Source: Kitasatospora gansuensis
GTDB lineage: Bacteria; Actinomycetota; Actinomycetes; Streptomycetales; Streptomycetaceae
NCBI RefSeq assembly: GCF_014203705.1
Contig: NZ_JACHJR010000001.1
Span: forward strand, 7,626,001 to 7,690,000
Direction: 5' to 3'
DNA length: 64,000 bases
A program made the position numbers and the translations under genes. Below the pieces are notes generated by a model that was not told the DNA's origin, did no database searches, and saw only the letters and a program-made list of their open reading frames with translations. Within the stretch, counting starts at the first letter, position 1; each line of letters begins with the position of its first letter. Shown piece by piece: positions 10,199 through 47,600 of this stretch.

Positions 10199-10306
10199 TT
10201 ACATCCAGATACAGATGCCGCTGTCGCGGCTGGTGGCCGCGTGCGCAGGGGTGGCGATGAGCAGCAGGCCGATCGTCAGGGCCATGCCGAGAGCGAGCTT
10301 CTTCAC
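10199..10306 (-). CDS. Predicted secreted small peptide (35 aa)
   Basis: A GTG at 10306, with AGGGAAG nine bases upstream, opens a 35-codon frame ending TAA. Residues 1-23 form a textbook Sec signal: VKKLALGMA, a hydrophobic core LTIGLLLIATP, then AHA as a signal-peptidase site. The predicted mature peptide is only about 12 residues (ATSRDSGICIWM) with one cysteine. The gene lies downstream of the SARP-NB-ARC-TPR regulator on the same strand, 178 bases away. A 27-nt palindrome lies at its likely promoter, next to TCTAAT as a -10 box. Small exported peptides beside TPR regulators act as signals in Gram-positive RRNPP systems; that role here is inference. It could also be an unrelated secreted peptide. 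Confidence 0.6.
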   Translation of the reverse strand: MKKLALGMALTIGLLLIATPAHAATSRDSGICIWM

Positions 10307-10363
10307 GTTGCTGTTCTTCCCTTTCAGGGATGACTTGCGTAGCGCGGACCTGAGTGATTAGAT

Positions 10364-10390
10364 TCAGAGGATGGTCGGACCATCCTCTGA
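10364..10390. promoter_or_regulatory. 27-nt palindrome upstream of peptide gene
   Basis: Thirteen-base arms (TCAGAGGATGGTC and its complement) flank a single central base. On the minus strand it is followed directly by TCTAAT (10362-10357), a fair -10 box for the peptide gene, so the palindrome would cover the -35 region. It might be an operator. Because it also lies 95 bases after the regulator stop, it could instead be a terminator hairpin, although no T-run follows. Confidence 0.55.
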
Positions 10391-10484
10391 TGGATCATCA
10401 GGCCGCGACAGTAGCGCGCGAGTTCGGGCGCGGCAAAATCGCTCGAGAGGCTGGGTGAGTGGTGATCAAAAGCGAAAGATCATG

Positions 10485-13400
10485 TCACTGAATCGGTCGA
10501 AGACAAGCGCGAAGATAGTCTGATTCGCCGAGGTCCAATGATGAGCCGAGGGCCACTGCTCGCTGCCACATCGCCTGGGCCTCCGAGGGGCGGCCGAACC
10601 GGAGCAGGGCGGCAGCCAGACTGTCGGCAGCTTCGGCCTCCGCGCCGGGAAGCCGGGTCGCGCGGGCCAGGGTCACGGCGGCGCCGAGGTGTTGGGTGGC
10701 CTGGCGCAGGTGCCCGAGTGCAGTCTCGGCCCGACCCGCGCCGCGTAGGGCGATGATCTCCTCGTGGACGGCCCCGACCTCGTGGGCGACCTGGGCGGCC
10801 TCGGTGAAGCGGTCGACGGCGTCGCGAGGCCGATCGGCGCGCAGGTAGGTGCCACCGAGGATGTTCAGTGTTTTGACGACGTGTTGGCGGTCGTCGAGCT
10901 GCCGGAAGGTCTCCAGGCCGGCCTGACACAGTCGGACGGCGGTAAGGAGCTCTTCAGGGAGGGGCAGGGTTTCGGCCAGATTGATGCGGATCATGGCGCG
11001 ATCGGAATCGGTGCCGGAGATTCTGCTCAGGGTGAGCGACTCCTCGAAGGTCCGCCGGGCCGACTGCTGGTCGCCCATTTCCAGATAGACGTTGCCGATG
11101 TTGTTGAGGGCCTGTCCCTCTTTCCGGATATCGCCGCTGCGCCGTGCTTCGGAGAGCGCTTCGAAGAACGCGACGAGCGCCTCCGCCGGCTCGGAGAGAT
11201 GGAGCAGGATGATGCCGTGCCCGTTGGAGTACCTGATCCGGTTGGCTCGGTTGATCGGCAGGGTCAGGGCCTTCCGCTGCAGATCCAGTGCGGTCTCGTA
11301 CTCGCCGGTGCGCAGGTGCAGTCGGGCCAGTTGGGTGAGGGCCTCGGCCTCGCCCTCCGGGTCTCTCGCCGCCCGGGTCAGCGCGAGTGCCCGCTCGCCT
11401 GCCTCTCCGGCCAGGGAGTTGCGGGAGGTGTTCGAGTAGCTGACGCTCAGGTCGATCCGGCTGCGGCCCTCGGCGCGGCGGTTCCCGACGGTCCGCCAGT
11501 GGGCGGACGAGGCGTGGTGCATCTCCGCAGCCGCCACCCAGTGCCCTTCCTGGCGGAGGAACTCGGCCAGGACATGGGAGAGTTGAGCGGCCTCGACCAT
11601 CAGTCCGGCGCCCCGGGCCTGCAGCTCGGTCGCCACCAGGGCTGCACACGACTCGGTGAGCCAGTGGTGCGGATCCGCCTCATCGGTCCAGTGCGGATCA
11701 GTGCCCTCGATGCCGGTGACGGGAAGCCTGGGTCGGCCGGGGTAGAGGATGCGATCGGCCTGGTCGGCGAGCCGGATACAGGTGAGAACCAAGCGGCGGA
11801 CGGCTGCCTCGCGTTCGCCGGTGGGCTCCTCGCGTTGGGCCAGGGTGCGCGCGTACTCGCCGAGCAGGTCGTGGAAGCGATAGCGCTCGGGGGAGATCTC
11901 TTGCAGCAGGTGGCAGTTGAGCAGGCTTTCGATGATCCTCTCGGATTGGCCGCCCGGTCTGCCGATCAGGGCCTCGGCCTCGAAGGAGCCGAAATCCGGC
12001 CCCGGGTGCAGGCCGAGACGACGAAATCCCGAGCGCTGATCCCCACTGAGGGCCAGGTACGACATCTCGAACACCCGTGCCACGTCACGGAATTCGTCCC
12101 GGATCTCACCCAGGCGGCCGGGCTCGCGGGCCAGTCGGCGGGCCAGGCGCTCCAGGGTCCAGGTCGGTCTGCCCTTGAGGCGGGCGGCCCCGATCGCGAG
12201 AGCGAGCGGTAACTGGCCCAAGCGCGCGACGATGTCGCCGACCTGGGCGATGTCGTCGGTTCGCTCCTGGCCGACCAGGTGACGGAACAGGGCGATCGAC
12301 TCGGCTTCGGGCAGCAGATCGAGGAAATGGGTGTGCGCACCGGAGAGTTCGGTGAGTCGGTGCCGACTGGTCAGCAGGGCTGTCGAGGAGGGCGAGTCGG
12401 GCAACAGCGGACGGACCTGCTCCGGGCTGGCGACATCGTCCAGGATCACCACCATGCGGCGGGCGGCGAGTTCGGTCCGCCAGCGCGTACTGAGCTCGGC
12501 GGTGTCGGCATGCAGGGAGTCGGCTGGAGCGCCGAGGGTGCGGAGCAGGAAGAGCAGTGCGGAGTGGGTGGGGAGCGGCGGCGACTGGGGTGTGGAATGG
12601 CCTTGGAGGCTGAGGTAGATCCGACCGTCGGGGTAGCGGGACTGGAGGCGATCGGCGGCGTGCAGGGCCAGTTCGGTCTTTCCGACCCCGGGCATGCCGG
12701 AGAGGACCTGGATCCTTGCCCGCTGCCGGTCGGCCTCGGCGACCTGGGCCAGCACGTCGTCCCGGCCGATCAGGTGGCTCATGCCGGGAAGATTGGAGAG
12801 CGCCGTGGACCGGTGCGATGTGCCGCGTGGAGCCGGCTGCCGGTCCGGCAGGAGCTCGGCCACCGGGGCCTGGTTCAGGATGCGGTCGTGGAGGTGGGTG
12901 AGCTGGGGGCCCGGGTCGGTGCCGAGCTCGTTGAGGAGATGGTGGCGGACCCGTTGGAAGGTGGTCAGGGCGTCGCCGGGGCGCCCGGCGCCGTAGAGGG
13001 CGATCAGCAGGTGGCCGGCCAGCGATTCGTTGCCGGGGTGCTGGTCGAGCTGGCGGGAGAGTTCGGGGACCAGGTCGGTGAAGCGGCCGAGGCGGAGCTC
13101 GATCGGGTAGCGGTGCAGGGTGGTCGCGAGCCGCTGCTCGGCCATCCTGGTGCGGGTGGCCTGGGCCCAGAGGCCGGGCAGGCCGGCCAGGGCCTCGCCG
13201 TGCCAGAGGGCCTCGGCCTGGTCGAAGGCGGCCAGGGCGGCCCGGTCGTCGCCCGCCTCGGCCAGGGTTCTGGCACGGGCGGCCGCCCGCAGGTAACGGT
13301 GCCAGTCGACCGCGGTCCGGTCGGCCTCCAGGGTGTAGGTGCGCGGACCGCTGGTGACCTCCGGGGCGGGGCCGTCCGAGCCGGTCTGCTCGATTGCGTC

Positions 13401-13625
13401 GCGGAAGGCCCGGCGGAGTCTGGAGACGTAACTGTAGAGCAGGGCCAGGGCGTTGGCGGGTGGCTCGTCGTCCCAGACCCGCTGGGTCAGCACGTCGTGC
13501 GAGACCGCCTTGCCGAGGTCGTGGGCGAGCGCCGCGAGCACCGCCCGCTCGCGGTTCGAGCGGAGGGGGACGAGCTGGGCCGCGGCGCGGATCTCCACTG
13601 CGCCGAACAGACGAATCGTCAGCAT
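10485..13625 (-). CDS. SARP-family regulator with NB-ARC and TPR domains (AfsR-like)
   Basis: The 1046-residue protein has the AfsR layout. Residues 1-100 are an OmpR-type winged helix (LRSNRERAVLAALAHDLGKAVSH, then NALALLYSYVSRLRRAF). Residues 105-250 are the bacterial transcriptional activation domain. An NB-ARC ATPase follows, with Walker A GMPGVGKTE at 310-318, Walker B MVVILDDV and the sensor LLTSRHRL. From about residue 660 the protein is TPR repeats (GQALNNIGNVYLEMGDQQSA is a clear one). Such proteins activate secondary-metabolite or developmental genes; ATP binding and the TPR part usually gate activity. It starts at ATG 13625, divergent from another NB-ARC-TPR gene, and is followed on its own strand by the small secreted peptide gene. 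The target genes are not evident in the window. Confidence 0.88.
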   Translation of the reverse strand: MLTIRLFGAVEIRAAAQLVPLRSNRERAVLAALAHDLGKAVSHDVLTQRVWDDEPPANALALLYSYVSRLRRAFRDAIEQTGSDGPAPEVTSGPRTYTLEADRTAVDWHRYLRAAARARTLAEAGDDRAALAAFDQAEALWHGEALAGLPGLWAQATRTRMAEQRLATTLHRYPIELRLGRFTDLVPELSRQLDQHPGNESLAGHLLIALYGAGRPGDALTTFQRVRHHLLNELGTDPGPQLTHLHDRILNQAPVAELLPDRQPAPRGTSHRSTALSNLPGMSHLIGRDDVLAQVAEADRQRARIQVLSGMPGVGKTELALHAADRLQSRYPDGRIYLSLQGHSTPQSPPLPTHSALLFLLRTLGAPADSLHADTAELSTRWRTELAARRMVVILDDVASPEQVRPLLPDSPSSTALLTSRHRLTELSGAHTHFLDLLPEAESIALFRHLVGQERTDDIAQVGDIVARLGQLPLALAIGAARLKGRPTWTLERLARRLAREPGRLGEIRDEFRDVARVFEMSYLALSGDQRSGFRRLGLHPGPDFGSFEAEALIGRPGGQSERIIESLLNCHLLQEISPERYRFHDLLGEYARTLAQREEPTGEREAAVRRLVLTCIRLADQADRILYPGRPRLPVTGIEGTDPHWTDEADPHHWLTESCAALVATELQARGAGLMVEAAQLSHVLAEFLRQEGHWVAAAEMHHASSAHWRTVGNRRAEGRSRIDLSVSYSNTSRNSLAGEAGERALALTRAARDPEGEAEALTQLARLHLRTGEYETALDLQRKALTLPINRANRIRYSNGHGIILLHLSEPAEALVAFFEALSEARRSGDIRKEGQALNNIGNVYLEMGDQQSARRTFEESLTLSRISGTDSDRAMIRINLAETLPLPEELLTAVRLCQAGLETFRQLDDRQHVVKTLNILGGTYLRADRPRDAVDRFTEAAQVAHEVGAVHEEIIALRGAGRAETALGHLRQATQHLGAAVTLARATRLPGAEAEAADSLAAALLRFGRPSEAQAMWQRAVALGSSLDLGESDYLRACLRPIQ

Positions 13626-13824: not shown

Positions 13825-16107
13825 GTGCAGCCACTGACGAACGCGTCACTGACCGCCGCGCTGCGGTCGGCCACCAGCGAGCAGCTCGACCAACTGGAGC
13901 CGCTGACAGGCAAGTTGCGCAGGCCGCTGACAGACGACCAGTGTGACGAGATCGCCCGGACGGTGCTGGCGGGAACACCCGGACTGGTGACGGGAATTGC
14001 GGTCTGGGTGGCGATGGTGAGTTCGGACGTGAACAACTCGATCTCCGGTTCGGCGCAGTTCACCGGCACCACCGTGCAGGCCCGCGAGATCCACGGCGGA
14101 ATTCACGTCCGAGTAGAATCACCCGCGCTGCCGACGCCACGTCAACTACTGCCCATTCCCAGCCATTTCACCGGACGGTCGGAGGAGCTGTGCCGGCTGG
14201 ACCGGATGGCCGACCCCGCCGGACCGGTGCTGGTGGTGGTGACCGGACCGGCCGGCGTGGGCAAGACCGCTCTCGGGTCGTACTGGCTGCGCGGTCTGGC
14301 GGCGGAGTACCCGGACGGCCAGCTGTACGCGGATCTGCGCGGACACGCACCGGAGGGGCCGACCGATCCGACCGAGGTGCTCGGTGGTTTCCTGCGGGCG
14401 TTCGGGGTCAGCCCTGTGCCGTCCGAGCTGGCCGAACAGGCCGCTCTCTGGCGCTCGTTGACCGCGCGGCGACGGCTGATCCTGATGCTCGACAACGCGG
14501 TGAGCGCCGCGCAGGTCCGGCCACTGCGGCCCGGGTCGGACGGTGGCGTGGTGCTGGTGACCAGCCGGCTGCGGCTGACCGGCCTGGCGCTGGACGGCGC
14601 GGACTTCCTGCCGCTCGGACTGCTGGCCCCCGAGGCGGGGACCGAACTGCTCCGGAGCCGGATCGGCACCGGACGGATCGAGGCCGAACCGGACTCCGCC
14701 CGGCAGGTGGTGGACCGGTGCGGCGGCCTGCCGCTGGCACTCTGTGTGGCTGCCGCCCGGCTGGCGGCCCGGCCGGCCCAGGCCATCTCGGTCACCGCCG
14801 CCGCGCTGGGACGGGACACCGACCGGCTGGGCACGCTCAGGATCGGGGACGAGGACGCCGTCCAAGGCGCGCTGGACGCTTCCCGCCGCCTGCTCTCCCC
14901 GGCAGCGCGGCGGCTGTACGGGCTCCTCGGCCGGCTGCCGTTCGCCGAGTTCGGCCGGGAACTGGCCACCGCCGTGGGCGGATCGGCAGCCGAGGCGGAC
15001 GACGCGTTGGAGGAGCTGACGGAGGTTCACCTGCTGGAGGAGACCGGCCGCGAGCGGTTGAAGTTCCACGACCTGGTCCGGCTGCACGCCCGGGGCACCG
15101 ACCCGGGCGGGGTGGACGCCGTGCGCCGGGCGGTGGACTGGTACCTCGCCGTCGCGACCGCGGCGGAGACACTGATCAGCCCCAACCACCGCTCGATGGC
15201 GCGGAGTTACGCGGAGCAGCTGCCCAGGCCGGTGCCGTTCGGCGATGAGCCGGGGGCGCTGGCCTGGCTGGACGCCGAGCAGTTCCAGCTGATGACCGCG
15301 CTGCGGACGGCGGCCGAGGCGGACTGGCACCCGACGGTCTGGCAACTGGCCGACGCGATGTGGCCGTTGTTCCTGCGGCTGCGCCCGTACGCGCTCTGGA
15401 TCGAGGCTCACGAGCGGGGCCTCGCCGCGGCACGCGCCGCCGCTGATCCGGCGGCCGAGGCCCGGATGCTGACCTCCGGCGCGGCGGGGCTGCGCAACGC
15501 GGGCCGGCTGGTGGAGGCGGCGGAGTGGTACCGGCAGGCGCTCGCGCTGGCCGAGCGCTCGGGTGACCCGAGGAGCGGGTCGCAGGCGCGGAACGGGCTC
15601 GGGCAGCTGGCCCGGCTGGCGGGCCGACCGGCCGAGGCGGTCGGGCACTTCGAGCAGGCCGTGGCGCTGCGGGAGGGGATCGGCCACGACCGGGGCGCAG
15701 CCGTTTTCCGGATCTCGCTGGCCGAGGCCAGGCTCGCCCTGGACGAGCACCCGGAGGCCGTCCGGCTGCTCGAACTGGCCCGGGCGCAGCTGCTGGCCGT
15801 ACCGGACCGGTACGAGGCGGCCAGGGCGCTGGCCCTGCTCGGCCGGGCGAACGGCACGGTGGACCCGGAGCTCGCCGAGCGCCATCTGCGGGCGGCGATC
15901 GACGAGTTCCGGGCCTGTGGGTCGCGGCACTGGGAGGCCCGCTGCCACGAACTGCTGGGCGAACTGGCCGGATCGACGGGAGATCCGGCCGAACAGCGGG
16001 CGCGCTACGAGCACGCGCTCGAGCTCTACCGGGCGGTGCGGGCGCCGGATGTCGACCGGCTGACCGAGAGGCTCGTGGAACTCTCGGCCCGCAGGGTCAG
16101 CGACTGA
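13825..16107 (+). CDS. STAND-type NB-ARC and TPR protein without DNA-binding domain
   Basis: The 760-residue product begins with about 60 helical residues, then a short linker SGSAQFTGTTVQAREIHGGIH. That glycine-rich 'VQAR-IHGG' element is typical of actinomycete STAND proteins. An NB-ARC module follows: Walker [11 protein letters not shown] at 141-150, Walker B RLILMLDNA, VLVTSRLRL and a GLPLAL helix. TPR-like repeats occupy roughly residues 520-745 (GLRNAGRLVEAAEWYRQALALAERSGD, then RNGLGQLARLAGRPAEAVGHFEQAVAL). Without a recognised effector domain it may act as a sensor or scaffold. GTG 13825 has GGGGGAGAG upstream. Divergence from the SARP gene suggests shared regulation. Its final 82 bases overlap a convergent small gene. 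Confidence 0.83.
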   Translation: MQPLTNASLTAALRSATSEQLDQLEPLTGKLRRPLTDDQCDEIARTVLAGTPGLVTGIAVWVAMVSSDVNNSISGSAQFTGTTVQAREIHGGIHVRVESPALPTPRQLLPIPSHFTGRSEELCRLDRMADPAGPVLVVVTGPAGVGKTALGSYWLRGLAAEYPDGQLYADLRGHAPEGPTDPTEVLGGFLRAFGVSPVPSELAEQAALWRSLTARRRLILMLDNAVSAAQVRPLRPGSDGGVVLVTSRLRLTGLALDGADFLPLGLLAPEAGTELLRSRIGTGRIEAEPDSARQVVDRCGGLPLALCVAAARLAARPAQAISVTAAALGRDTDRLGTLRIGDEDAVQGALDASRRLLSPAARRLYGLLGRLPFAEFGRELATAVGGSAAEADDALEELTEVHLLEETGRERLKFHDLVRLHARGTDPGGVDAVRRAVDWYLAVATAAETLISPNHRSMARSYAEQLPRPVPFGDEPGALAWLDAEQFQLMTALRTAAEADWHPTVWQLADAMWPLFLRLRPYALWIEAHERGLAAARAAADPAAEARMLTSGAAGLRNAGRLVEAAEWYRQALALAERSGDPRSGSQARNGLGQLARLAGRPAEAVGHFEQAVALREGIGHDRGAAVFRISLAEARLALDEHPEAVRLLELARAQLLAVPDRYEAARALALLGRANGTVDPELAERHLRAAIDEFRACGSRHWEARCHELLGELAGSTGDPAEQRARYEHALELYRAVRAPDVDRLTERLVELSARRVSD

Positions 16108-16430
16108 CGCTCCGCCAGCACCACCGAGAGCAGCGCGGGCCGTCCGAGGACCAGCCAGGTGTGCACCAACGACCCGGCCTGCCAGGCTGGTTGGGCGGTC
16201 ACGGTGATCAGGCCGACCGGGGTCGCGGCCCAGACCGCGCCACCCGGGGCCGGTACCGCGACCACCCGGCAGCCCGGGTGGCGGCGCAGCGTGAGCGCCG
16301 CCTCGGCGGCCGGGCGCGGCTCGGTGGCGGTCAGCACGTCCGCCCAGTGCAGCCCGGGGGAGCCGTGGTCGACGGCGAGGCGCAGGTGCTCGTCCACCAG
16401 GACGCCGCCGGACATCACCCGGACGATCAC
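16026..16430 (-). CDS. Hypothetical protein coupled to transferase gene
   Basis: The GTG at 16430 overlaps the TGA of the preceding transferase gene (GTGA), which indicates translational coupling. The 134-residue product has strand-rich sequence (GGVLVDEHLRLAVDHG, CRVVAVPAPGGAVWAATPVGLITVTAQPAW, SLVHTWLVLGRPALLSVVLAERQSL), with no known motif or signal peptide. The last 27 or so residues lie opposite the 3' end of the NB-ARC-TPR gene and look less protein-like. The upstream open frame to 18614 is antisense material and is not used. The function is unknown; its place suggests work with the transferase. Confidence 0.55.
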   Translation of the reverse strand: MIVRVMSGGVLVDEHLRLAVDHGSPGLHWADVLTATEPRPAAEAALTLRRHPGCRVVAVPAPGGAVWAATPVGLITVTAQPAWQAGSLVHTWLVLGRPALLSVVLAERQSLTLRAESSTSLSVSRSTSGARTAR

Positions 16431-17644
16431 CGGTCGGTGAGCGGGCTCGGCAGCGGCAGCGGTTCGGTGACCGGTTCGTACGCGGGTTCGCCCAGCCCGA
16501 GCAGACGGTAGATCAGGGCGCGGGCATTGCGGTTGAAGCCGCCGGGCTCGGAGGAGATCCCGGCCGCGATGGCCTCGAACTCGGCGGGGCGGTGGCGCTC
16601 TTGGGTGTAGGCGAGCTGGTCGGCGAGGGAGTGGCCGAGCGAGAGCGCGGGCGCGGTCCTGGCCAGCTGGGCGGCGGGCGAGTCGGGGTTGACGTCCTGG
16701 AACGGGAAACGGGCGAGCAGCATCGGCGTCCGGGTGAGCGCCCCGTACAGGGTGACCGAGCCGTGGTCGCCGATCAGGTGGTCGGCCGCGATCAGCAGCT
16801 GCCGCCAGTCGGTCTCCGGCGGGATCAGCCCGACGCCGCGGCGGGCGTGCGCGTGCAGCCAGGCGTCGATCTGCCAACGCCCGTGCCCGGCGAAGACGTT
16901 GGGGTGCACCAGCAGGGCGGTGCGGTAGGTGTCGGTGGGCAGTTCGGCGAGCAGGCGGGGGAGCAGGGCGTCCAACCGGTTGAAGGAGGAGCCCAGGCCC
17001 CAGGTGGAGCAGACCAGTACCAGCCGTTCGGCCGGGCGCAGGCCGAGCGCCCGGCGGTAGTCCTCGCGCAGCGGCAGGCTGGCGGCGATCCGGTCGTAGC
17101 AGGCGTCGCCGATCACGCTGGCCACCGGCAGCGCCTCCGGGCAGGAGCGGGCCAGGGTGTCGAGGTCGGAGCGGTGGGCGAGCGCGATGGCGCTCGGCAC
17201 CACCCGGCCCTGCCAGGTGAGGTAGCGCCGGCCGAGGCCGCCCACGGAGCGGTCGGACGTGTCGGCGAGCCGGGAGAGCTTGATGTGACCGGCGCCGTGC
17301 GGGAGCCGGAGCAGCGGTCCTCGGAGCTGCTCGACACCCTGCGAACCGGCGGCCAGCACCAGGTCGAAGTCGGTTCTGACGGCCTCCCGCCAGGGCAGCA
17401 CGATGCCGCCCAGGCGGTGCAGGAACTCGGGTACGCCCGCGTTGAAGGCGTGCGGTGCGACGGTGAAGACGACGTTGATCCGGAGGTCGGCGCGGAGCAG
17501 CGGCAGCAGGTCCTGCAGCCGCTGACCGTAGACCAGGGTGTGGATCACGAACAGGACGCGCTTGCAGTCGGGCAGGGTGGCCCACTGACCGGGATTCCGG
17601 CGGATCGGGGCGCCGGCTTTCGTCCTGGGTGCTGCGGATGACAC
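16427..17644 (-). CDS. CDP-glycerol-transferase-like glycosyltransferase fold protein
   Basis: The 405-residue protein resembles CDP-glycerol glycerophosphotransferase or GT-B enzymes. An N-terminal Rossmann part (KRVLFVIHTLVYGQRLQDLLPLL) is followed by a second domain with LVLVCSTWGLGSSFNRL, TALLVHPNVFAGHG and the conserved ADHLIGDHGSVTLYGALTRTPML. In teichoic acid polymerases this DHGS/YG block binds the phosphate donor. Streptomyces relatives are often poorly annotated. No membrane span is visible. It could build or modify a cell-wall polymer, which agrees with the nearby CHAP amidase and carboxypeptidase genes, but this is inference. ATG 17644 follows a GGGGGAG ribosome site. It is coupled to the small gene that follows. 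Confidence 0.68.
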   Translation of the reverse strand: MSSAAPRTKAGAPIRRNPGQWATLPDCKRVLFVIHTLVYGQRLQDLLPLLRADLRINVVFTVAPHAFNAGVPEFLHRLGGIVLPWREAVRTDFDLVLAAGSQGVEQLRGPLLRLPHGAGHIKLSRLADTSDRSVGGLGRRYLTWQGRVVPSAIALAHRSDLDTLARSCPEALPVASVIGDACYDRIAASLPLREDYRRALGLRPAERLVLVCSTWGLGSSFNRLDALLPRLLAELPTDTYRTALLVHPNVFAGHGRWQIDAWLHAHARRGVGLIPPETDWRQLLIAADHLIGDHGSVTLYGALTRTPMLLARFPFQDVNPDSPAAQLARTAPALSLGHSLADQLAYTQERHRPAEFEAIAAGISSEPGGFNRNARALIYRLLGLGEPAYEPVTEPLPLPSPLTDR

Positions 17645-44670: not shown

Positions 44671-47600
44671 GTGCACGTGCTGGTCAGGCTGCTGGGTCGG
44701 GTCGGGGTCGAGACGGCGGACGGTTTCGTCCCGGCCGGGACGGCGAAGCAGAGCGCGGTGCTCGCCGTGCTCGCGATGACGCCGGGACGCCGGGTGGGGG
44801 TGGACCACCTGATCGACCGGGTCTGGGAGGAGCACCCACCGCCCACCGCCCGGAGCACCCTGTACGCCTACCTGGCCCGGCTGCGCCGGGTGCTGGTTCC
44901 CTGGCCGGAGCTCCAACTGCTCCGGGACGGCGCGGGTTACACGCTGACGGCCGAGCCCGAGCAGATCGACGTGCACCGCCTGCGCCGGCTGGCCGCCGAC
45001 GCCGAGCGGGCCGAGCGGGACGGCGACCGGCCGCGCTCGGCCGAACTCCTCGGCGCGGCGGCCCGGTTGTGGGACAGCCCGCTCGCGGGAGTGCCCGGAG
45101 CCTGGGCGGACCGGATGCGGGAGACCCTGACCAGGGAGTACCTGGAGATCCAGACCAGCCGCTACCGCACCGAACTCGGGCTCGGCCGGCCAGGACCGGT
45201 GGCCGCCGAGCTCTCCCCGCTGGTGGCCGAACACCCGCTGGCCGAACCGCTGGTGACGCTCCTGCTGCTGGCGCTCCGGCAGAGCGGCCGGACCGCCGAG
45301 GCCCTGGAGCTGTACGAGCGCACCAGGACTCGGCTGCGCGAGGAGCTCGGCTCCGACCCCGGCGCGGCCCTCGCCGACGCCCACCGCCAACTGCTCGCCG
45401 GTGACCGGACCGCACCTGCTCCGCCACCGGTCGTGATCCCACGTCAACTCCCGCCGGTGGTACGCGAACTGACCGGCCGCCGGGCCGAGTTGGCGGAGCT
45501 GGACGGGCTGCTCCCGGACGGCCTGCCCGCGCTGGTGCTGGTCTCCGGGATGGCGGGCGTCGGCAAGACCGCACTCACCACCTGGTGGGCCCAGCAGGTC
45601 CGGAGCCACTTCCCGGACGGTCAGCTCCACCTCAACCTGCGCGGCCACGGCCCCGGCGAACCGATGACGCCGGGTCAGGCCCTGACCCAACTGCTCGGCG
45701 CGCTGGGCGTCCAGCCCGAGCAGATCCCCGCCGACGAGCAGCAGGCCGCCGCCCTCTACCGCTCGGTGCTGGCCGAGCGCCGGGTCCTGCTGCTGCTCGA
45801 CAACGCCCGGACCGCCCAGCAGGTCCGCCCGCTGCTGCCCGCCGGGCCGCTGAGCTGCGTGCTGGTCACCTCCCGGGAGCGGCTCACCGGCCTGATCGCC
45901 CGGGACGGCGCCCGGGACCTGCGGCTCGGCCTGCTGACACCCGATCAGGCGGTCACCCTGATCGCCCGCCTGGTCGGTTCCGACCGGGTCGCCCAGGAAC
46001 CGGAGGCCGCCGCCGAGATCGCCCGGACCTGCGGCCTGCTGCCGCTGGCGATCCGGATCGCCACAGCCGGGCTGGCCGGGGCCGACTACCCGACCCTGGC
46101 CGACCGCGCCGCCGCCCTGTCCGGCACCAGCGCACTGGCCGAGCTGGAGGTGCTGGGCGACGAGCAGGCCGCGATCCGGACCGCCTTCGACTACTCGTAC
46201 CAGGCGCTGACCCCCGATCAGCAGCTGCTGTTCCGCCGCCTCGGCCTGCTGCCGGTCCCCGAGTTCGGCCCCCGGGGAGCGGCCGCGCTGACCGGCTCCA
46301 CCCCCGAACGGACCGCCCCGCTGCTGCGCCGCCTGCTGGACGCGCACCTGATCACCCAGGTGGCCGCCGACCGCTACACGGTGCACGACCTGCTCCGCCG
46401 CTACGCCCAACTGCTGGGCCTGGAGTGCGACCCGGAGGCCGACCGGCTGGCCGCCTCCCGGCGGCTGTACGCGCTCTACCTGCACCTGGCGGACTCGGCC
46501 GCGCGGACACTGTTCCCGCAGTTCGTCCGGCTGCCGATCCCGGAGGAATTGCGGCTGCCGGGCGAGCCGTTCACCGACGCGCGGGACGCCGCGGCCTGGA
46601 TCGCCCAGTACGAGGCCGCGCTGGTGCTGGCGCAGAGCGCGGCGGTGGCGCAGGGCGCGCCCGAGATGGCCTGGCTGCTCTCCGACGCGCTGCGCCCGCA
46701 CTACACCGCCCGGCGCGGCAACCCGCACTGGCTGCCGGTCGCCCGCACCGCGCTGGCCGCCGCGCTGGCCCGGGACGACCGGGCCGCCGTGATGGCCTCG
46801 CTCACCAGCCTGGCGATGGCCCACCACTGCACCGGCGACTACCGGCGCGCGGTCGGCTACAACCGCTGGATCGTCCGGGTGGCCGAGCGGATCACCGACG
46901 GCCCGGCCGAGCTGCACCGGTTCCGGGCCTCGGCGCTGGAGCGGATCGGCGTCGCCTGCTCGATCCTCGGCCGGGCCGACCAGGCGGTGGAGTACATGTC
47001 GGCGGCGCTGGCGGTCTACCAGCAGCTCGGCCGGCGGACCGGCATCGCGATCAACCACAACAACCTGGGCGCCGACTACCTGATGTCGGGCCGGCTGACC
47101 GAGGCCGAGGCCCACCTGACCGAGGCGCTGGAGATCCACCGCTCGGCGGGCGCCCGGCGCGGCGAGGCGGCCGCACTGATCAATCTCGGGGTGCTCCGGC
47201 ACCGCCGGGGCGATCTCGACGCCGCGGTCCTGGACCTGACCACGGCCCACCTGATCGACCGTGACCTCGGGCACCTGGACGGCGAGGCCGCCGCACTGGT
47301 CGAACGGTCGGCCGTGGCGCTCTCCGCCGGACGCCCCGAGGACGCCCTGCACGACGCCCGTACGGCACTCGCCCTGGTGCTGCGGACCGGGGACCCGTTC
47401 GCCGAGTGCGGCGCGCTGCTCGCCCTCGGCGGCTACCGGCTGGCGATGGGCCACACCCGCCCCGCCGCCCTGCACCTGCGCCGCGCCCTCCGCCTCGCGG
47501 TCACCAGCGGCGTACGGCACCCGGAGCTCCGCGCCACCCTCGGCCTGGCCGAGGTCGAGCTGCTGGAACACCGCCCGGCCGAGGCCGCCCGACTCGCCGG

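Follow-up and report, generated by a model that had tools for sequence, protein, structure and literature searches.

A SARP-type regulator gene and the 35-codon gene behind it in Kitasatospora gansuensis are read here as a peptide-sensing pair. Judged by sequence, the pair is probably an RRNPP-like circuit built on an actinobacterial STAND/SARP receptor, in which the SARP would sense the peptide. The genes lie in a window of 64,000 nucleotides (nt), at 7.626-7.690 Mb of an 8.2-Mb contig (NZ_JACHJR010000001.1). Genes of the two kinds are paired at many related loci, the peptides share a conserved short core and the type of core follows the phylogeny of the SARPs. The SARP and peptide genes are syntenic with two further genes, one for a divergent STAND protein and one for a TagF-like enzyme.

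The earlier note on this DNA had described an AfsR-like SARP of 1046 residues ending in TPR repeats, followed on the same strand by the 35-codon gene, and both were confirmed by open reading frames (ORFs) and by a domain search. Matches to Trans_reg_C (residues 23-77), BTAD (106-250), NB-ARC (301-487) and TPR repeats (about 760-1026) give the SARP the full large-SARP layout of winged helix, BTAD, NB-ARC and TPR. Its stop codon is separated by 178 nt from the start of the peptide frame, which translates as VKKLALGMALTIGLLLIATPAHA followed by ATSRDSGICIWM and a stop. A Sec-type signal with an AHA site is predicted, leaving the 12-residue tail ATSRDSGICIWM, as had been proposed. A ribosome site had been proposed as well; a GGGA stretch is present about 11 nt 5' of the GTG start and is weak. 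Coordinates are collected in Table 1.

Short frames behind related SARPs

Relatives of the SARP were collected at E <= 1e-150 in 23 of 70 same-genus genomes, at E <= 1e-190 in 26 of 249 genomes of the family and at E <= 1e-120 in 3 of 236 genomes of the class, each count including the window genome. Named genomes scanned with a 36-row alignment yielded 207 relatives, and the 80 best, headed by G053:C38, were retained; with the SARP alone as query the scan gave 70 stretches and no relative. After 15 loci repeating the same downstream DNA had been removed, the discovery set held 75 distinct loci, the window included, a few of them with SARPs placed by the tree outside the peptide-bearing groups. 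Controls were 40 SARPs, made up of 24 distant ones and 16 further BTAD genes from the window's own genome, with L144, L156 and L169 excluded as too short. L157 was counted as a control, and so against the pairing, though the tree later placed it in a peptide-bearing group.

The motif rule took ORFs 0-300 nt downstream of the SARP, using patterns picked after the discovery loci had been viewed. Sec candidates were called by a simple Sec score, not by SignalP. The only prospective counts come from two hold-out sets with rules fixed beforehand: 12 loci reached through the enzyme gene (L205 was dropped, its contig being shared with L093) and 25 loci found with the SARP in a different sample at genus level. 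All p-values assume independent loci, though the loci are related.

Short same-strand frames lie behind many related SARPs, mostly 40-230 nt downstream, with cores such as CIWM, CIIM, CIII, CMPS, CIPT, TCIAY, PIWC, GIWL and IFMT. Examples of the Sec type, each read to its stop codon, end in ..AAATVNRCIII, ..SANRCIMM, ..NNGCIML, ..SPARCIIMGAPA, ..KQVCMPM, ..QAVTPDVYIMF and ..ASACIYMT. Frames without a clear signal include MSMGPVPTFWDIPIWC, MNMLMHIFLFAASMPLWC, MPCIAALTALICVGIHFWM and ..GTCSWLGIWLLCPML, again each closed by a stop, and many precursors of the Kitasatospora clade are short with no obvious leader. The search for a small ORF behind related SARPs that the earlier note had suggested was thus run and gave what it anticipated: such an ORF is frequent and commonly carries a signal, its short core is kept, and signal and spacer vary. 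The proposed pairing of peptide and regulator held in that it recurs beside many relatives; it needs qualification in that some relatives have no recognisable peptide gene and the Sec signal is not universal.

In the discovery set the motif rule was matched at 51 of 75 loci, against 3 of 40 controls (Fisher 2e-10), 4 of 75 antisense and 1-6 of 75 in each of 8 shuffles. The control matches were L164, L157 and L080, the last an 18-codon frame of the window's own genome and the only motif match among its 16 other BTAD genes; the Sec rule also matched one of these 16. Over the whole discovery set the Sec rule was matched at 39 of 75 loci, against 4 of 40 controls, 7 of 75 antisense and 1-8 of 75 per dinucleotide shuffle (10 shuffles). 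Sec signal and core occurred together at 27 of 75 loci and in none of the controls, antisense strands or shuffles.

In the first hold-out the motif rule was matched at 3 of 12 loci (shuffles 38/600, antisense 0/12, p 0.036), and a later look gave further candidates at L215 (..STASAVCMPT, then a stop), L216 (..GLCTPSLAG..) and L213 (..LTCIACVT..). In the second it was matched at 11 of 25 loci (shuffles 75/1000, antisense 2/25, p 7e-7). The Sec rule, which is free of any motif, was matched there at 19 of 25 loci, against 74/1000 shuffles (7%; p 4e-17). The pattern C-[IML]-x-x, chosen afterwards, is present in 18 of these 19 Sec frames and in 0 of 4 control Sec frames, in forms such as ICLPS, VCMPY, TCLPY, TCIAY (four loci) and TCIAF.

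Two side observations concern these frames. The SARP frame appears broken in L215 and L223, and in L215 the precursor-like frame (..ASAVCMPT, then a stop) follows 812 nt after the early stop. In L224, L227, L228, L237, L239-L241, L100, L109 and L233 the core Cys stands at the end of the hydrophobic segment (VALACMPT, VLTCIAY, TLTCIPT), a placement reminiscent of a lipobox, or of pheromones that are released from signal sequences.

Peptide cores and the proposed circuit

Comparison of sister loci located the conserved part of the precursors. L107 and L050 have VNRCIII in common, while 22 of the 42 codons compared differ in the residue they encode, and L052 and L054 have RCIIM in common, with 42 of 92 codons changed. 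Other sister cores are DVYIMF (L020/L031), SEPGTC-W-GIWL (L037/L040) and IFMWASPIGD (L124/L129). Cores for the tree and for the correlations below were assigned by eye; in the 55-row Streptomycetaceae clade candidates were assigned in 50 rows, with that of L021 doubtful. Core type tracks the clades of the SARP tree. Trp cores belong to the Kitasatospora-like clade, C-x-P-S/T and C-I-x-M/I/L cores to Streptomyces and Actinacidiphila, and F-M-T/W cores to Actinomadura and its relatives.

Core similarity was compared with the identity of the three SARP parts at 60 loci. The TPR part, where conservation is lowest, gave the highest correlation (r 0.56), followed by the DNA-binding part (0.54) and NB-ARC (0.49). 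Partial correlations were 0.33 for TPR given NB-ARC (reverse 0.09) and 0.28 for TPR given the DNA-binding part (reverse 0.20). At 27 loci core similarity correlated with TPR identity at 0.585 for the SARP and 0.549 for the STAND protein, with partial values of 0.31 and 0.19. The pattern can be matched to what is expected of a co-diversifying receptor, and shared ancestry alone could give much of it, since the correlation with the DNA-binding part is nearly as high.

The proposed circuit would run through translation, export, processing, import, binding and activation. Many lineages would export the precursor by Sec, and short leaderless precursors would leave the cell by a different route; trimming would then yield a small hydrophobic peptide containing the core, roughly GICIWM in the window. 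The peptide would re-enter the cell via an oligopeptide permease and bind the TPR superhelix of the SARP; binding would relieve autoinhibition by the NB-ARC/TPR part, and the SARP domain would then activate transcription. The divergent STAND protein may act as a second sensor or as a partner, and the TagF-like enzyme may serve as output or modifier.

SARP residues 620-1046 were modelled at a predicted local distance difference test score (pLDDT) of 94. The solved structures nearest to the TPR part by fold include LGN and APPBP2, whose TPRs were solved with bound partners or peptides, and those nearest by sequence profile include LGN, kinesin light chain and AfsR. In the genome 16 SBP_bac_5 matches were found, which are permissive of peptide import and nothing further. 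As far as the cited passages go, AfsR is inhibited by its nucleotide-binding oligomerisation domain (NOD)/TPR part, its activity rises with ATP in vitro, the existence of an inducer for it "remains elusive" and STAND proteins are presumed to be inducer-gated (PMC10936776).

Neighbouring genes and rival explanations

Table 1. Features of the SARP-peptide locus, in window coordinates
Feature	Position	Strand	Basis
Peptide precursor gene, 35 codons, GTG start	10199..10306	minus	ORF reading and like arrangement behind related SARPs
Codons of GICIWM, counterpart of the cores of other precursors (CIIM, CIII, CIML, CMPS, PIWC, GIWL etc.)	10202..10219	minus	Core comparison; mature ends putative
27-nt palindrome between SARP and peptide gene	10364..10390		Two 13-bp arms with a 1-base centre
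SARP-NB-ARC-TPR regulator, 1046 aa; candidate receptor and activator of transcription	10485..13625	minus	Domain matches
Divergent NB-ARC-TPR (STAND) gene, 760 aa; conserved neighbour	13825..16107	plus	NB-ARC and TPR_12 matches
Enzyme gene, 405 aa, in convergent orientation to the STAND gene; GT-B fold of the TagF/CDP-alditol type predicted	16427..17644	minus	AlphaFold model and Foldseek

The divergent NB-ARC-TPR gene that had been noted on the other side of the SARP was recovered (Table 1), and the domain search gave no match to a DNA-binding domain in its product. A STAND gene is the divergent neighbour of the SARP at 33 of the 53 closer loci (L136 among them weak); at L116, L120, L123, L124 and L129 a STAND match was found on the SARP strand, farther upstream. 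Among the 27 more distant SARPs, L143-L169, it is the divergent neighbour of none, and a weak match on the same strand was seen for L148 and L167. The enzyme gene, a fourth conserved gene that the earlier note had missed, is present at 42 of the 53 closer loci, at 43-71% identity, and beyond these only beside L157 and L167; at E <= 1e-130 it was found in 41 of 287 genomes of the family. Sixteen further loci were collected around the enzyme gene, and in 13 of these (L205 included) a SARP and a STAND gene adjoin it. The contig of L219 ends within the locus, and L214, on a 6.6-kb contig, shows only a STAND fragment. L211 has a STAND and a TagF-like gene with no recognisable SARP in 9.7 kb, and may be a third type of solitary pair or a case of SARP loss.

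The enzyme gave no Pfam or NCBIfam match. Its AlphaFold model (pLDDT 86.9) had 3l7j as best Foldseek match (E 4e-11, template modelling score about 0.5-0.6), with other GT-B enzymes close behind the TagF/TarL teichoic-acid enzymes, and the protein is predicted to have a GT-B fold of the TagF/TarL kind. A TagF-like family of this kind, with no Pfam or NCBIfam match, accompanies STAND genes in Streptomycetaceae and in Actinomadura-type genomes. The window's own genome holds two more convergent pairs of STAND and TagF-like genes (L173:4454-8242 and L174:6896-10815) with neither SARP nor peptide gene; their enzyme frames have 556 and 577 codons, one match spanning a TGA, and no Sec frame was found near either. 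Given these solitary copies, the STAND and enzyme genes form a unit of their own, and in the window the SARP-peptide pair is joined to it. In the Streptomyces loci L099, L105 and L110 the TagF-like and STAND genes flank another conserved gene, for a protein of about 192 aa, at about 5.4-6.1 kb upstream from the stop codon of the SARP; its L110 copy gave no Pfam match. A reading of the module as a defence system was rejected, PADLOC having given generic or weak TPR/ATPase matches only.

Several results weigh against the SARP as sensor of a peptide. The window peptide itself has only weak matches elsewhere: tblastn against the 69 other same-genus genomes gave no close match, with 15 genomes at E <= 0.5 and a best value of 0.05, and the matches lie mostly in long frames and are therefore ascribed to signal-sequence chance. 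No peptide frame was recognised in L210, L212 and L218 (one clade) or in L204, L209 and L217, all with STAND and enzyme genes present, and behind the SARPs of L235, L041 and L044 the gene is missing or unrecognised. The Sec rule was matched at 1 of 12 loci only in the first hold-out and in 8 of 25 antisense strands in the second, where the motif match of L237 is a chance frame, though L237 holds another candidate. The cores vary widely and their assignment is by eye. No RRNPP receptor is among the 50 fold and 60 sequence matches listed for the TPR part, and the share of common ancestry in the correlation of core and TPR part counts here as well.

The antisense count, the frame of L237 and the 7% of shuffles with Sec-like frames would suit an account of the peptide ORFs as chance frames in intergenic DNA, which we find barely credible: discovery and hold-out counts exceed those of shuffles, and the core is kept with synonymous changes while the surrounding codons change. 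As a general explanation the account is already largely refuted, though it may hold for single loci. It is improbable that the small ORF encodes an effector, controlled by the SARP and acting inside the cell or in the membrane, either a target like AfsS or a small hydrophobic toxin, and not a ligand. Many of the ORFs are hydrophobic, and afsS sits directly downstream of afsR. The sister pairs compared, however, conserve the short core best and not the hydrophobic segment (L100/L109 and L117/L119 are too similar to judge), and an AxA-like site precedes the core in many precursors, to be set against the cited description of afsS as an AfsR target (PMC10936776).

Two further accounts involve the neighbouring genes. 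The peptide might be a signal sensed by the divergent STAND protein, the SARP only driving its expression; the STAND protein has TPRs too, is the divergent neighbour at most of the closer loci (33/53), and its TPR identity correlates with core similarity (r 0.55, 27 loci). We regard this as rather unlikely, as the TPR part of the SARP correlates slightly better, the two solitary STAND and enzyme pairs have no such peptide nearby, and the candidate frames stay behind the SARP even in Actinomadura-type loci, where the STAND homologue does not sit next to the SARP in divergent orientation. It is somewhat easier to conceive, though still unlikely, that the peptide is a product, RiPP-like (a ribosomally synthesised and post-translationally modified peptide) or otherwise secreted, matured by the TagF-like enzyme, with the SARP as activator and the STAND protein as a helper like the FxSxx/cyclophane TPR proteins. 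The enzyme gene is as common beside these SARPs and in the family as given above, the core often lies near the C-terminus, as in RiPP precursors, and both proteins show similarity to the FxSxx TPR (NF040586) and HaaT (NF041717) models, though below the cut-offs: the SARP with 83 bits against 300 and 321 against 1125, the STAND protein with 70 and 240. By rough gene calls, in which radical-SAM, P450, protease and transporter models were not scanned, only SARP, STAND and enzyme genes recur in at least 5 of 53 neighbourhoods (about 4.5 kb to either side). Elsewhere in the genome the enzyme gene occurs twice more beside a STAND gene, where no Sec frame is found nearby, and at other loci it adjoins SARPs that have no peptide gene. 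The Cys of one core group is absent from most of the Trp group, so the precursors have no common modification site.

Relation to known systems and remaining features

With the SARP taken as sensor of the peptide, the pair resembles RRNPP systems (ComRS/XIP, Rgg-SHP, PlcR-PapR) in having a TPR regulator beside a short precursor gene and a conserved core behind a variable leader. The core is small and hydrophobic, here in some cases with Trp, and the adjacent gene encodes a predicted secreted precursor of 10-100 aa (by the simple Sec score). Trp is also present in XIP and SHP. The window SARP differs in carrying Trans_reg_C and BTAD plus NB-ARC in place of an XRE-type helix-turn-helix (HTH), in its 1046 aa against 250-500 aa, in its actinobacterial host and in the additional STAND and TagF-like genes. 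Some RRNPP receptors, such as Rap, have no HTH either. Since it has no XRE-type HTH, is 1046 aa long and is not from Firmicutes, the SARP-peptide pair is not counted as an RRNPP member. RRNPP_detector, as described in the cited passages, covered Firmicutes and viruses and receptors of 250-500 aa (PMC10075063). A survey of that scope could not have found the SARP-peptide pair.

NosP is a SARP that is said to respond to peptidyl ligands, in which it is like the present case; its ligand reportedly derives from the nosiheptide precursor peptide, in which it differs. The RopB system with its leaderless communication peptide (LCP) is resembled by those Kitasatospora-clade precursors that are very short with no obvious leader, and differs as a Firmicutes system with RopB as receptor, according to the cited passages (PMC10518010). 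AfsR has the same domain order as the window SARP and the NOD/TPR inhibition described above. The window SARP scores 438 bits, below the cut-off of 1430 for the NCBIfam AfsR equivalog NF053617, and the cited passages on AfsR give no known inducer and name no partner peptide (PMC10936776). STAND proteins of the MalT type share a ligand-gated NB-ARC switch feeding a DNA-binding domain, but the inducers given for them in those passages are small molecules, maltotriose for MalT (PMC10936776). BldK in Streptomyces imports a signal oligopeptide that triggers development, with no receptor or precursor gene of the SARP-peptide kind linked to it in the part of the source cited (PMC11303876).

A 2023 survey gives small molecules as the typical actinobacterial signals in the passages cited (PMC10075063), and a 2024 study of one Streptomyces reports, in its cited part, no strong signalling-peptide candidates (PMC11019849). 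A literature search, with subscription journals and preprints largely outside it, gave no SARP-peptide pair described in titles or abstract openings. The wider claim is put at about an even chance: that the pairs form a widespread actinobacterial peptide-signal family with STAND-type SARPs and a syntenic second STAND gene and TagF-like enzyme, which would be TPR-receptor signalling outside RRNPP and would give the first inducer of a large SARP. Large SARPs can activate antibiotic clusters; if the short peptide is the inducer, a synthetic peptide might switch on silent clusters, and RRNPP-like signalling would be extended to Actinobacteria. The listed SARP-peptide pairs make the question of peptide sensing directly testable.

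A second large SARP lies in the window at about 44965-45396 (+), in an open frame of 1102 codons, with no partner peptide frame seen behind it (L085).

The palindrome between the SARP and the peptide gene, which the earlier note had placed next to a likely -10, is real: when the 200-nt region was shuffled 300 times by mononucleotides, arms of 13 bp were never reached. The neighbouring -10 is not supported, because a consensus scan of the locus for a sigma-70-like promoter and a T-tailed terminator found neither. The palindrome was rejected as a conserved operator, as it is not kept beside relatives. L025 alone has a perfect palindrome of like length between SARP and frame, but of different sequence, and long hairpins occur further on in L124, L129 and L130.

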